DNA from: Methanoregula boonei 6A8
Lineage (GTDB): Archaea; Halobacteriota; Methanomicrobia; Methanomicrobiales; Methanospirillaceae
Reading direction: 5' to 3'
Assembly: GCF_000017625.1 (NCBI RefSeq)
Contig: NC_009712.1
Location: 496,001 to 560,000 of the forward strand
Length of the DNA: 64,000 nucleotides
In this document: positions 42,311 through 47,940 of the stretch, one piece after another
How positions within the stretch are numbered: position 1 is the stretch's first letter
Layout: each line of letters opens with the position of its first letter
Translations under genes and position numbers: made by a program
Notes under the pieces: generated by a model
Databases searched by the model: none
What the model saw: only the letters and a program-made list of their open reading frames with translations
What the model was told of the DNA's origin: nothing

Positions 42311-43348
42311 TCAGATGAGTTTAAAGATGGGGTGGCTTTCTGATTTGCATTCAACGCCGAGCTGGCGGGTGGCCTCAAGGACCGTGATATCCGTATAGGC
42401 CTGCGCGGTGATCATTGCTTCGACGTTTTCGATAGGTCCGTACATAATGAGGTCGGCACCGAGCGTGCTTGCAATCATGTTGCAGCCGATATCGGGTGCG
42501 GACCAGGCTGCCTGCCTCATACCGTCCATGCCGCCAATATAGTGGTGGCCCATCTGTTCGAGGAGCGCATCCTTGCCCTTGTAGCCTGCTGCCTGAACTG
42601 AGGGAGTCTTGCTTGTTCCCTTCCAGCGCTTGAGCCAGGTCCAGGAGACCGTCATGTTGTGGTATGCACCACCGGTTGGCAGGCCGTGGATCGCTTTGCA
42701 GGCGAGGATCTCACGGTAGGAACCACCGGAGCCAAGACCGAGCGGGGTCGCTGCGGTATCGAGGATCGGGCGGGTGATACCGCACTCTTCTGCGATCTGG
42801 AGCATACCCTTGGTCTGTCCTGCGACACCGCCTTCGGTGAGCACCTTTTCACGGCCGGCAACGGACGGGTCGCCGGGGTTGAACGCGAGCACAATGGCTG
42901 CGTCAACGTCACTGTTCTTTAAGGCCTCGACGTTCTCGGGCGGGATCGAACCGTTGATCGAGTTGTAGATCGCACGGTGTGCAAGCCCGACCTCGGTCAC
43001 ATACTTGCATGCGTGAGCGAGCGCCTTGGGGGCTGACGAGTCCATCAGGAACGCAGTCTTGTTGTCGATGCTGTCGAACCAGCTGAAATAGCTCTCGAAT
43101 GCCTCTCCGTATTCCGCAATGATCTGGATGAAATGCGGAACACCGGTCAGATCAGAGAGTTCCTGACAGCGGTTCCAGAGTGCCTCTGCCTTTACCTTGT
43201 CGATCTTTCCCGTGTGGTCGTCAAGGACAATCTCCTGCTTGTTGTAGAAGATCGAAGCACCTAATACGGTCGGGTATTCGCCAGGCTGGCCACCAATTTT
43301 GGTGCCGTTGAAGTCCCAGACCTTCTGTTCTTTCTCAAACTTGAACAT
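42311..43348 (-). CDS. mtrH: H4MPT S-methyltransferase subunit H
   Basis: 345-residue soluble subunit that moves the methyl group from methyl-tetrahydromethanopterin to the cobamide on MtrA. It is a TIM-barrel protein of the methyl-pterin-binding type. FNGTKIGGQPGEYPTVLGASIFYNKQEIV at the start, FIQIIAEYGEAFESYFSWF, NSINGSIPPENVEAL and ATPLGLGSGGSYREILACKAIHGLPTGGAYHNM are all characteristic. Last gene of the operon. Confidence 0.97.
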   Translation of the reverse strand: MFKFEKEQKVWDFNGTKIGGQPGEYPTVLGASIFYNKQEIVLDDHTGKIDKVKAEALWNRCQELSDLTGVPHFIQIIAEYGEAFESYFSWFDSIDNKTAFLMDSSAPKALAHACKYVTEVGLAHRAIYNSINGSIPPENVEALKNSDVDAAIVLAFNPGDPSVAGREKVLTEGGVAGQTKGMLQIAEECGITRPILDTAATPLGLGSGGSYREILACKAIHGLPTGGAYHNMTVSWTWLKRWKGTSKTPSVQAAGYKGKDALLEQMGHHYIGGMDGMRQAAWSAPDIGCNMIASTLGADLIMYGPIENVEAMITAQAYTDITVLEATRQLGVECKSESHPIFKLI

Positions 43349-43363
43349 GTTTATTACACCTCA

Positions 43364-44104
43364 TTACACCAATGCCATCAATTTCTGGAGCATGAACAGC
43401 AGCATGACAAATACGACAAGTCCAGCGACGAGGCCGTACAGTATGCCGATATCTCTCCCGATCTTTCGTCCAACACGCTGTGCCACTTCAGCATCCACGA
43501 ACTCGAGTCTCTTCTCGATCTTGTCGAGTCTCTTCTCGATCTCGAGGAACTGGGGGTTTGCCCCCGCTGCAGCGACTTCAGCACCGCCGGCTGCTGCTTC
43601 CTTGACCTCTACAACGAGGGGGTCAGCGGCGAACGCGCCGGGGTCTTTGGCCTTGAGTTCATTGATCTTGGCCTTGATGGCGTTCAGGTCCTCGGTCTCC
43701 ATGATATTGACAATGGAAACCTGCTCCTGGAAGCGCTTGATAGCCGCGTCATTGAGATTTTCAATGAAGGGGATAGCGCCTTCGGCACCGACGATTCTTC
43801 CGTCTTTGACACCGCCCTTGTGGAGGGCTACAAGAGACTGGGCCGAAAGGTGGCCCTTGACTTCGGTACCACAGAGGAGCACGAACCTGATGTTGGGGTT
43901 GGCGATGTAGTTGGCGATGACCTTTTCCAGGCCGAGATTCTCGGTCTTACAGGAACCGCACATCGCAGCGCCGGCATCGCAGATACCCTGTTCATCGAGG
44001 TGGGATCCCATGGTGATAACAGCGACTGGGCTGTTTGCATCTCCGGAGTGGAAGTCGCCTTTGACAAGCGGCCATCCAGTTGCGGGTGATTTCTTATCTG
44101 CCAT
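43364..44104 (-). CDS. MtrA-MtrG fusion: second cobamide domain joined to MtrG
   Basis: 246 residues occupying the mtrG position of the operon. Residues 1-174 are an almost exact copy of MtrA (only two substitutions seen: T/S at 9 and V/I at 92), keeping the cobalt-ligand histidine H85 in [13 protein letters not shown]. From about residue 180 the sequence becomes Mtr[42 protein letters not shown] and one membrane helix. There is no separate mtrG. The product could bring an extra corrinoid-carrying domain to the Mtr complex. See findings. Confidence 0.9.
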
Positions 44105-44115
44105 TTGTCTTCACC

Positions 44116-44316
44116 TCAGATCAGTAACGCCGGCACCACGATCAGGATCACCGCGACGAGCAGTCCCGCAACAAATGCGATAAGGCCGTTTGTTGAACTG
44201 GCCGACTCGACTTTGTTGGTTCGTGCAAGGATCTGCGATTTATAGCGGACGTTCTCGACCATATTGTCGATTGCGACCATCCTGACTGGTCCTGCAGATT
44301 TTTCTTCTTCTGCCAT
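44116..44316 (-). CDS. mtrF: H4MPT S-methyltransferase subunit F
   Basis: 66-residue small membrane subunit: a cytoplasmic part with VRMVAIDNMVENVRYKSQILARTNKVES, then one C-terminal helix (LIAFVAGLLVAVILIVVPALLI). The MtrF pattern resembles the MtrA C-terminal anchor. The start at 44316 overlaps the mtrA end at 44322 closely. Confidence 0.93.
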   Translation of the reverse strand: MAEEEKSAGPVRMVAIDNMVENVRYKSQILARTNKVESASSTNGLIAFVAGLLVAVILIVVPALLI

Positions 44317-44321
44317 CTTTT

Positions 44322-45047
44322 TCACCCCACCCACATGAATCCGATCAGGGCAAACGAGACGATCAGGCCGATCATAAGCCCCTCGATCTTCCCTGCATAG
44401 ACACCAGCGGCAAACCTGTCGCGGTACCCGATGTCAGTGACCATCTTCTCGATGACCTTGATGCGTGCGGTAATGAGTGCCATCTCGCCGGAGATCGGGC
44501 GGACTTCCCCGCCTGCCTCTTCGCCACCGCCGGCTGCTGCTTCCTTGACCTCTACAACGAGGGGGTCAGCGGCGAACGCGCCGGGGTCTTTGGCCTTGAG
44601 TTCATTGATCTTGGCCTTGATGGCGTTCAGGTCCTCGGTCTCCATGATATTGACAATGGAAACCTGCTCCTGGAAGCGCTTGATAGCCGCGTCATTGAGA
44701 TTTTCAATGAAGGGGATAGCGCCTTCGGCACCGACGATTCTTCCGTCTTTGACACCGCCCTTGTGGAGGGCTATGAGAGACTGGGCCGAAAGGTGGCCCT
44801 TGACTTCGGTACCACAGAGGAGCACGAACCTGATGTTGGGGTTGGCGATGTAGTTGGCGATGACCTTTTCCAAGCCGAGGTTCTCGGTCTTACAGGAACC
44901 GCACATCGCAGCGCCGGCATCGCAGATACCCTGTTCATCGAGGTGGGAACCCATGGTGATAACCGCAACGGGGCTGTTTGCGTCCCCGGAGTGGAAGTCG
45001 CCTTTGACAAGCGGCCAGCCGCTTGCCGGTGATTTCTTGTCTGCCAT
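44322..45047 (-). CDS. mtrA: H4MPT S-methyltransferase subunit A
   Basis: 241-residue corrinoid-binding subunit. The soluble domain (residues 1-170) binds 5-hydroxybenzimidazolyl-cobamide with H85 as lower ligand; the tail ([35 protein letters not shown], then a membrane helix) is the true MtrA anchor. It accepts the methyl group from MtrH and passes it to coenzyme M, coupled to sodium export by MtrE. Cysteines in [11 protein letters not shown] are conserved between both copies. Confidence 0.97.
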
Positions 45048-45048
45048 C

Positions 45049-45342
45049 TTAGCTCACCTTGATCAGCTGGAATGCAATGACTCCTGCAACGAGTAATCCG
45101 ATGGCAAGACCATACCAGAAGGCGTTGATGCTGCCGCCGATAGCAAGTGTCTTCTCACGTCCCGGGAAGGATGCAACATAGTTTCCTTCGCCTGAGAGCA
45201 TGTTGACGAGATCGTCTGCCGAGGCCTCAAGGATTGCTACCTTGTCAAGGACCGGGGAGAGCGATTCGCCTGCGGTTGTCACGATACCGACAACCGGGTC
45301 GGCAACCAGGCCGAATTCCGGGAGAACAACAACATATCCCAT
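45049..45342 (-). CDS. mtrB: H4MPT S-methyltransferase subunit B
   Basis: 97-residue subunit beginning [21 protein letters not shown], with DELVNML-like [30 protein letters not shown] and one C-terminal helix. The start at 45342 is used; a longer frame to 45453 lies inside mtrC. The order C-B-A is the standard one. Confidence 0.94.
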
Positions 45343-45343
45343 G

Positions 45344-46195
45344 TTAGTGTCCCTCCACGTCCGGAATCGGTTTTGAGTCAAGCCATGCATATGCATCGCG
45401 CTTCGAGAGCCTGATGTACTCACAGTAGGTGTATACCCAGCCGATGAGTGCAATGATCAGGGATATGATCGCTGATCCGGCACTGACGAGTGCAAACGAC
45501 ATGATAGCTGCCACAATCATGGAGAGGAATCCGCATTCTGCGGTGAGCATGAGCATCCGGTCCTGTTTCCAGCCGGGTCCCAGGCACGCGTTGAACGGGT
45601 GCTGGATTGCAATTGAGCCGAGCAGGAATGCAACTGCCGTCAGTCCGCCACCAATAAACGAGAGCTGGTAGCTGGGCATGGACAGTGCGCCAAACAGGGT
45701 TACGGATCCCGTGGTCAGGCCGGTGAATGTGAAGCTGCCGGTGATAAGGACGGCAAAGCCCATGATGGTGAGAGCACCGACAATCGCAAGCTCGGTAAGA
45801 GCCTGGATCATGGCCGGGATCTTCATGTTGAGGACCTCATTTGCGAGGTACCCAAGGATGAGCCCGATGACCGCTGCAAGGACGAGTGCAACGATGGGTG
45901 CTGCAACGCCGAACTTGGTTGCAAGGAGCATTGCTATGACACCGGAACCGAACGCAATCATACCTGCCGAGGGAACACCGGTACCGATACCGTAGCTGCA
46001 CAGCACCTTGATGGTGTGGCTTCCCCAGATGAGGGCTGCGACTGCCGCAAGGCCGCCAAAGAACGAGAACATCTCGGTGTTGGTGAGCACATTGAGATAG
46101 GAGAGGTACAGGCACACAAGCGTAGCGATGACTCCTGCGATGAGGATCTTGTTGTGCGGGACGCCTCCTTCGATTACTTCAACTTTTACGGTCAT
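45344..46195 (-). CDS. mtrC: H4MPT S-methyltransferase subunit C
   Basis: 283-residue integral membrane subunit with about seven to eight helices. HTIKVLCSYGIGTGVPSAGMIAFGSGVIAMLL and NPFNACLGPGWKQDRMLM-like HPFNACLGPGWKQDRMLMLTAECGF are family signatures. Forms the sodium-translocating membrane part with MtrD and MtrE. Confidence 0.96.
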   Translation of the reverse strand: MTVKVEVIEGGVPHNKILIAGVIATLVCLYLSYLNVLTNTEMFSFFGGLAAVAALIWGSHTIKVLCSYGIGTGVPSAGMIAFGSGVIAMLLATKFGVAAPIVALVLAAVIGLILGYLANEVLNMKIPAMIQALTELAIVGALTIMGFAVLITGSFTFTGLTTGSVTLFGALSMPSYQLSFIGGGLTAVAFLLGSIAIQHPFNACLGPGWKQDRMLMLTAECGFLSMIVAAIMSFALVSAGSAIISLIIALIGWVYTYCEYIRLSKRDAYAWLDSKPIPDVEGH

Positions 46196-46204
46196 TTCAA
46201 CACC

Positions 46205-47038
46205 TCAAAACGTGACGATGAGGATCGCCACAAGACCGCAGAGTGCCGATGCAACCGCGGATGCAACAACCGACCGTGGCCAGCGCTTGAACTTGGGGTC
46301 GTGCGGGCCCTCGATGGTTCCGGTGATGTTGTATGCGGTCAGCACCGAGTTTACAAGGAACATGCCGATGGCAAAGATACCTGCTGTGGCAACTGCGATC
46401 GGGAGTGCCTGTGCAGCGGAGATGCTCATGATGTTCGGGAGCGTTGCCTTGTACAGGCTGAGAAGCTCGAGATAGATGAGCGTGCCGCCTGCACCGCCGA
46501 GAACGCCGCCGAGAACGCCGCCGACAAAGGAGACGAACGGCAGGCCATGGCCTTCGGTACCCTGCGACTTGTATTCAGGCTGGGAGTCCCCGGTGATCGG
46601 GTCCTTTAATACCTTGCCTGAAGCTGCGGGAATGCCCATGCCGAAGATGTACACGAAGTTGACCATCATACAGGTGATGGCCATCATCATGCCGCCGCCG
46701 ACACCGCCCGTGATAATGGCGATGACAAATCCCTGGTCAGCTGCCCAGGCGCCTCCGAAGAGTCCGGCAAGCCCTGCACCTGCTGCGAGCATGGCGACAC
46801 CGGTTGCGATACCGGGTGCCTGGCCCATTGCTGCGGGTGCGCCGCCGACCGGCACGAAGTGGACGCCGAATCCGATCAGGACGCCGCCGATGACCACGCC
46901 GATCAGGGCCATGAGGCCGAGACCCGGTGAGACCACGTAGGCGATCCCGAGCAGGATGATGAGCATGACGATACCGATCACCATGGCGGTGGGGTTTATT
47001 GCCGAGCCTGCTGCCGGCTTTGCTGCTACTGCGGTCAT
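46205..47038 (-). CDS. mtrD: H4MPT S-methyltransferase subunit D
   Basis: 277-residue membrane subunit. The glycine-rich VGGGMMMAITCMMVNFVYIFGMGIPAASGK and the loop DPITGDSQPEYKSQGTEGHGLPFVSFVGG are diagnostic. Overlaps mtrE by four bases. Confidence 0.96.
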   Translation of the reverse strand: MTAVAAKPAAGSAINPTAMVIGIVMLIILLGIAYVVSPGLGLMALIGVVIGGVLIGFGVHFVPVGGAPAAMGQAPGIATGVAMLAAGAGLAGLFGGAWAADQGFVIAIITGGVGGGMMMAITCMMVNFVYIFGMGIPAASGKVLKDPITGDSQPEYKSQGTEGHGLPFVSFVGGVLGGVLGGAGGTLIYLELLSLYKATLPNIMSISAAQALPIAVATAGIFAIGMFLVNSVLTAYNITGTIEGPHDPKFKRWPRSVVASAVASALCGLVAILIVTF

Positions 47039-47940
47039 GGTGCTGCCTCCTTTACGGGTGCAGTGTAGGGACCGTAGTTCTTGCGTGCCCAGACCTCGAT
47101 GTACCGGTCAACGACCGTGAAGACGAGGATGATCAGGACACCGACGATGATTGCGCCCCAGCCTGCTCCGATCTTGTCAAAGAGGATGGTACGCCAGAGT
47201 TCGAGGAATACGATCAGGCCAAAGCAGAGACCCGATGCGGGGCCGCCAAACTTTGCGGTGAAGAACCCGTTGTCGATTGAGTTGCGCTCTCCGGCTTCAG
47301 CATACCGGACGATATTTCCTGATGCTGAGATCGGGACACCGGCACCGAACTTCTGGTTCTGGTACTGGCGTTCCTTGCCGTAGTACGGGTTGCCTGTTGC
47401 TGACCCTGCTGCCCCGAGGGTGATTCCCCAGATGAACCCGAGCAGCGGCAGCGGGAACGGGTGTCCCAGCGCGACGTTGATCAGGTAACAGATGGTGACG
47501 GTACAGAAAACTGCTACAAAAGCATGAGCCATGGCAACCGTTGTCATGGACTTTAAGATGTCCACGTAGACCGGCTGGCCAAACTTGGAAAGGCTTGCTG
47601 TCCTGCCCAGGTATGCGGTTGTCGCATAGATTCCCTGAACGAAGACTGCAAGAAGAGAGCCCAGGACAATCGCGAGGACCGCGTTGATCTGCATAGCGAG
47701 AAACGCCCATGCAAGTCCTGCTCCCAGAGCACACCACAGGCCGTACGCTGGGGGTTCGCCTGCAACCGCCTTGTTGAAGATACGGTGCACGAATCCCATC
47801 TGCGGAGCGAGCTGAACCTGTGAGTTCGGGTCTCCCTGCGACCCGATGTTGGATTCAGTGTCTTCCGCGGAACCGGCTACGGTGGCAAGGGCTCCTGCCA
47901 ATGCAGTAATTCCAATGCCAAATACAATATTATCTACCAT
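47035..47940 (-). CDS. mtrE: H4MPT S-methyltransferase subunit E
   Basis: 301-residue membrane subunit containing the conserved intramembrane acidic region proposed as the sodium path. Sequence such as GSAEDTESNIGSQGDPNSQVQLAPQMGFVHRIFNKAVAGEPPAYGLWC and GNPYYGKERQYQNQKFGAGVPISASGNIVRYAEAGERNSIDN-type segments identify it. First gene of the operon, preceded by the strong Shine-Dalgarno GGGAGGAGG. Confidence 0.96.
   Translation of the reverse strand: MVDNIVFGIGITALAGALATVAGSAEDTESNIGSQGDPNSQVQLAPQMGFVHRIFNKAVAGEPPAYGLWCALGAGLAWAFLAMQINAVLAIVLGSLLAVFVQGIYATTAYLGRTASLSKFGQPVYVDILKSMTTVAMAHAFVAVFCTVTICYLINVALGHPFPLPLLGFIWGITLGAAGSATGNPYYGKERQYQNQKFGAGVPISASGNIVRYAEAGERNSIDNGFFTAKFGGPASGLCFGLIVFLELWRTILFDKIGAGWGAIIVGVLIILVFTVVDRYIEVWARKNYGPYTAPVKEAAP

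Follow-up and report, generated by a model that had tools for sequence, protein, structure and literature searches.

The gene in the mtrG position of the Methanoregula boonei 6A8 mtr operon encodes a fusion of MtrA and MtrG in which the MtrA cobamide domain is intact (43364-44104, minus strand; positions refer to the window, the whole 64,000-nucleotide stretch of DNA that was analyzed). The fusion corresponds to mtrA-2b, a subunit of the Na+-pumping Mtr complex that occurs throughout the order, and the conservation of its sequence makes a second working cobamide arm per protomer the best reading and a likely one. The fusion itself is already known. The preliminary description of this DNA had presented a fusion with a second cobamide domain; that domain fits the ligands, the docking residues, and the purifying selection reported here, but the novelty is lost, since the fusion was published in 2015 (PMC4632066).

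The fusion gene and its genomic context

The fusion gene is an intact open reading frame of 246 amino acids (~26 kDa by length) that matched MtrA and MtrG in Pfam and mtrA and mtrG in NCBIfam, both NCBIfam assignments lying above the curated cut-offs. The MtrA cobamide-binding domain covers fusion residues 4-172 (43589-44095, minus strand; Pfam PF04208, E 1.2e-82). Within it, the codon for His85, the lower axial cobalt ligand, reads CAC (43850-43852, minus strand). A Gly/Ala-rich linker formed by residues 173-184 (43553-43588, minus strand), recognized by low pLDDT and by alignment with standalone MtrG, leads to the MtrG stalk and membrane helix, residues 185-236 (43397-43552, minus strand; Pfam PF04210, E 6.2e-23, profile positions 11-62). 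The coordinates, domain extents, and residue count of the preliminary description were all right.

The mtr operon is complete according to Pfam and lies on the minus strand in the order mtrE, mtrD, mtrC, mtrB, mtrA, mtrF, fusion, and mtrH. It comprises mtrE (47035-47940, PF04206), mtrD (46205-47038, PF04207), mtrC (45344-46195, PF04211), mtrB (45049-45342, PF05440, E 1.1e-30), mtrA-1 (44322-45047, TIGR01111, E 1.5e-101), a standalone mtrF (44116-44316, PF09472, E 1.2e-19), the fusion gene, and mtrH for the methyl-H4MPT:corrinoid methyltransferase (42311-43348, PF02007), with inferred internal ATG starts for mtrB and mtrF. mtrA-1 encodes the canonical MtrA of 241 amino acids and is the gene-conversion partner of the fusion; its His85 codon is located at 44793-44795 (minus strand). 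The two MtrA domains show up as a long, nearly identical direct repeat of ~0.5 kb.

The whole genome, a single contig of 2,542,943 bases, contained two MtrA places at the search sensitivity used and one MtrG place. An intact mtrG elsewhere had been named beforehand as a finding that would undo the fusion reading; no second mtrG besides the fusion was found across this contig, and the reading stands. The host, Methanoregula, belongs to the order Methanomicrobiales, which agrees with the taxonomic range of mtrA-2b.

Distribution of the fusion

Of the 232 genomes of the class that were searched for MtrG, 179 gave a match. The complete fusion was read in 49 loci from six families of Methanomicrobiales, with both complete domains comparable in 46 species, so that the N-terminal MtrA domain suggested as a check on the MtrG proteins of this order is present order-wide. 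No standalone mtrG was seen at Methanomicrobiales loci with enough contig in the six families fetched. A named-collection search returned 80 loci, most of them spanning the whole query, in the genera Methanoregula, Methanolinea, Methanoculleus, Methanofollis, Methanocorpusculum, Methanospirillum, Methanogenium, Methanomicrobium, and Methanocalculus.

Eight short reading frames were candidates for a standalone mtrG in some Methanomicrobiales, and seven of them were rejected as the fusion running off the contig end (L034-L037 and L039-L041), most of these contig ends falling visibly inside the MtrA repeat. At locus L038 (genome G135), a frameshift splits the fused MtrA domain near residue 136, either as a sequencing error or as a real change. 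Eight genomes with no mtrG match were also checked: four lacked any MtrA match, two had an MtrA truncated by the end of the contig, in one an MtrA domain lay close to a contig end, and G127 carried an additional fragment at the end of a contig; these eight give no evidence of real absence. The near-identical mtrA repeat is a frequent breakpoint in metagenome assemblies (L034-L041; genomes G151 and G098), and mtrA-2/mtrG is therefore truncated or missing in many draft genomes, where the truncated gene can pass wrongly for gene loss or for a standalone mtrG.

The near identity of the ~0.5 kb repeat, and the fact that short-read assemblies do break there, are what one would expect if the fusion were an assembly artefact or a pseudogene arising from duplicated sequence. 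However, the same junction was recovered in many independent assemblies across the order, single-contig genomes included, the gene shows species-specific differences and strong purifying selection, and the M. boonei genome has no other mtrG. An artefact at the fusion junction, which the preliminary description had listed as a possible refutation, is ruled out by the recurrence of the junction across the order, and we give this explanation as a whole practically no chance.

Outside the order, no fusion was found among the matches listed and 18 follow-up genomes, in which mtrG was standalone in frames of 57-143 amino acids. In three genomes of family f14 (G239, G254, and G260), a frame of ~250 amino acids immediately upstream of standalone mtrG contains a second MtrA domain, the arrangement that the Methanocella A-F fusion would give. 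Another genome of this family (G247) has no second MtrA domain upstream of mtrG, and G260 contains two mtrG matches in tandem.

Cobamide ligands and proposed docking residues

The fusion MtrA domain contains both His84/85, the lower axial ligand, and Glu54/55, with which it pairs. His85 of Methanosarcina mazei MtrA ligates cobalt, and His85 of the fusion is its equivalent (PMC12774963). When 46 mtrA-1 and 48 mtrA-2 copies were compared, D17, K53, T54, E55, N65, H85, and the GAI-F-EN segment were invariant, and nearly all of GAIPFIEN was the same throughout. His85 in particular was kept in 48 of 48 fusion copies and 46 of 46 mtrA-1 copies; its retention in both MtrA copies of M. boonei, as reported earlier, was confirmed in the sequence.

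Residues of MtrA that contact MtrH and MtrCDE have been proposed (PMC10998594). Between-copy differences at these positions numbered 0 of 690, compared with 176 of 7154 elsewhere; as the docking residues are conserved in MtrA generally, this identity is weak evidence and establishes no more than their retention in both copies.

Gene conversion and selection on the fused domain

The fusion MtrA domain and mtrA-1 of M. boonei share 98.8% identity in protein and 97.1% in DNA. Over the MtrA domain, the copies differ by 15 nucleotides and two residues; the two substitutions of the preliminary description correspond to S9T and I92V in the alignment, and among the 172 codons compared there are no nucleotide differences past codon 92. 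The best match of the fusion MtrA domain in another species reaches only 84.4% DNA identity, and in the DNA tree the domain is the sister of mtrA-1 from the same genome. This pattern is general, as within-species MtrA pairs from the 46 species had a mean identity of 97.7% in protein and 96.2% in DNA, compared with 75.8% in DNA between species. In a FastTree DNA tree, the two copies were sisters in 40 of the 46 species, a few of them weakly supported, and the remaining six pairs fell inside pairs of close relatives. Wang et al. described the MtrA domains as homogenized by gene conversion, with a mean identity of 92.4% within Methanomicrobiales species, and stated that recent duplications cannot be wholly excluded under the gene-conversion model (PMC4632066).

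Frequent conversion, with sister pairs in most species and the gap between within-species and between-species identity, would also be seen if the second MtrA domain were a structural or spare copy, able to fold and perhaps to bind cobamide, yet with no part in turnover and resembling mtrA-1 only through overwriting. Five species with diverged pairs speak against such a spare copy (G024, G043, G114, G119, and G120; dS 0.55-0.98), since their dN/dS is 0.07-0.11 and all ligands are intact in both copies of all five. Because the diverged pairs combine this low dN/dS with intact ligands, the fused MtrA domain is selected on its own account and is not merely a fresh overwrite. A further argument against a spare copy is the essentiality of both paralogs, for which Wang et al. 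cite Sarmiento et al. (PMC4632066). We consider a spare domain unlikely and retain the reading of a second working arm. The study by Sarmiento et al. was reportedly carried out on Methanococcus maripaludis of the Methanococcales, in which the second copy is said to be an A-F fusion.

The loci at which gene conversion has lapsed, with dS in the range given above, are L048, L058, L052, L053, and L062. In the tree, the mtrA-1 copies of G024 and G043 cluster together, as do their mtrA-2 copies, and the lapse of conversion is therefore older than the split of these two species.

The likeness of the domains could also be maintained after translation, with connectase, an MtrA-specific ligase, exchanging the domain on the MtrA-1 anchor for the one on the MtrG anchor at the shared motif (K/R)DPGA. 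DPGA was present in both copies of every species read, connectase (PF09894) occurs in 41 of 106 Methanomicrobiales genomes, and carriers have the more similar pairs. The M. boonei genome lacks connectase, yet the copies there are 97.1% identical in DNA; connectase-mediated exchange is thereby ruled out for M. boonei, and as an explanation for the second domain it is extremely improbable. The DNA identity of the MtrA copies was 98.8% in connectase carriers and 95.0% in non-carriers (11 and 30 species, respectively; p 0.003, phylogeny ignored).

Fold, linker, and stalk

In the AlphaFold model of the fusion, the MtrA domain is well predicted, residues 170-183 form a disordered linker (pLDDT < 50), and residues 184-245 form a single helix. 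Foldseek identified the Rossmann-like fold of MtrA in the model. Alignment of the modeled MtrA domain with cobalamin-bound MtrA (5LAA) gave an rmsd of 1.7-2.1 Å and a Foldseek E-value of 1.4e-20, and the domain also matched M. mazei MtrA (9QTR).

In the MtrG part, the PF04210 match and the alignment showed that the conserved cytosolic/membrane helix with the GRDIGILYG segment is kept. The N-terminal strand of standalone MtrG (IPxVVVD) is absent from the fusion, and the Gly/Ala-rich linker stands in its place. The MtrG profile match, which starts at position 11 in M. boonei, starts at 8-11 in most of the listed fusions and at 5-6 in a few, compared with 1-3 in most standalone MtrG proteins. The spacing between DPGA and the stalk motif was 23-26 residues in the fusions and 24-27 residues in the 29 mtrA-1 copies where the motif was found.

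In the published complexes, the MtrG helices lie in the membrane as a bundle of three on the threefold axis, and the N-termini of the MtrA, MtrB, MtrF, and MtrG helices point into the cytosol at the stalk end (PMC10998594, PMC12774963). Because of this orientation, a domain added to the MtrG N-terminus adjoins the exit of the MtrA arm. In M. mazei, the N-termini of MtrB, MtrF, and MtrG come together in a sheet where MtrH attaches (PMC12774963), and since the fusion is without the N-terminal strand of MtrG, the stalk packing near MtrB and MtrH may differ.

A proposed second cobamide arm

We propose that the MtrG helix at the center of the membrane stalk carries the second MtrA cobamide domain at its cytosolic end, connected through the disordered linker. 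Each protomer would then have a swinging cobamide arm on MtrA-1 and another on MtrG, and both would load methyl groups from the MtrH dimer and deliver them to coenzyme M at MtrCDE, with gene conversion keeping the two arms interchangeable. In M. mazei, three MtrH dimers provide six barrels with opposite directions, and only the proximal barrel is thought to serve the single MtrA (PMC12774963). Speculatively, and by analogy with that complex, two arms would equalize the numbers of cobamide domains and MtrH barrels. On balance, we favor two catalytically competent arms per protomer, placed on different stalk helices and serving methyl transfer and Na+ pumping; a trimer would then have six arms, as many as there are MtrH barrels.

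The opposite orientation of the active sites in the MtrH dimer, where a single MtrA leaves the distal site without an evident partner (PMC12774963), together with the exit of the two arms from different stalk helices, could also be accommodated by specialized arms, for example one for the membrane-proximal and one for the distal MtrH barrel, or one for transfer and one for stalk assembly or reductive reactivation. Such a division of labor is hard to reconcile with the repeated homogenization of the whole domain, which keeps the arms equivalent, and across species no position had a consistent one-way difference between the copies. We judge it quite improbable and prefer two equivalent arms. The papers searched contained no cobamide stoichiometry, proteomics, expression data, mutant, or complex structure for Mtr of Methanomicrobiales.

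Among the methyl transfers of methanogenesis, only the one catalyzed by Mtr pumps Na+. The two published structures of the complex were obtained from species that have a single cobamide domain in each protomer. Two MtrA domains are found in the whole order Methanomicrobiales and, independently, in Methanococcales. If both arms are loaded, mechanistic models with one arm per protomer miss these methanogens.

Comparison with known systems

Wang et al. (2015, G3) reported the mtrA-2b A-G fusion in eight of eight complete Methanomicrobiales genomes, including that of Methanoregula boonei 6A8 (PMC4632066), and a survey from 2018 reached the same conclusion (PMC6053082). The fusion described here is the same as mtrA-2b, with the same position between mtrF and mtrH, a homogenized MtrA domain, and no structural difference. 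Added to the work of Wang et al. are a larger survey, the conservation of ligands and docking residues in both copies, the dN/dS of the pairs that have diverged, and the observation that the fusion lacks the N-terminal strand of MtrG.

The A-F fusion mtrA-2a of Methanococcales and Methanocella arvoryzae likewise places a second MtrA domain, homogenized with mtrA-1, on a single-helix stalk subunit. It differs in that the anchor is MtrF and not MtrG, the gene lies between mtrA-1 and mtrG, and its origin is independent according to Wang et al. (PMC4632066). The canonical Mtr complexes of Methanothermobacter marburgensis (8Q3V, PMC10998594) and Methanosarcina mazei (9QTQ-9QTS, PMC12774963) share all eight subunit families with M. 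boonei, as well as the MtrA domain, the disordered linker, and the stalk of MtrA, MtrB, MtrF, and MtrG helices. In contrast to the fusion, however, their MtrG is encoded on its own, is 72-86 residues long, and carries no MtrA domain, which leaves one cobamide domain in each protomer.
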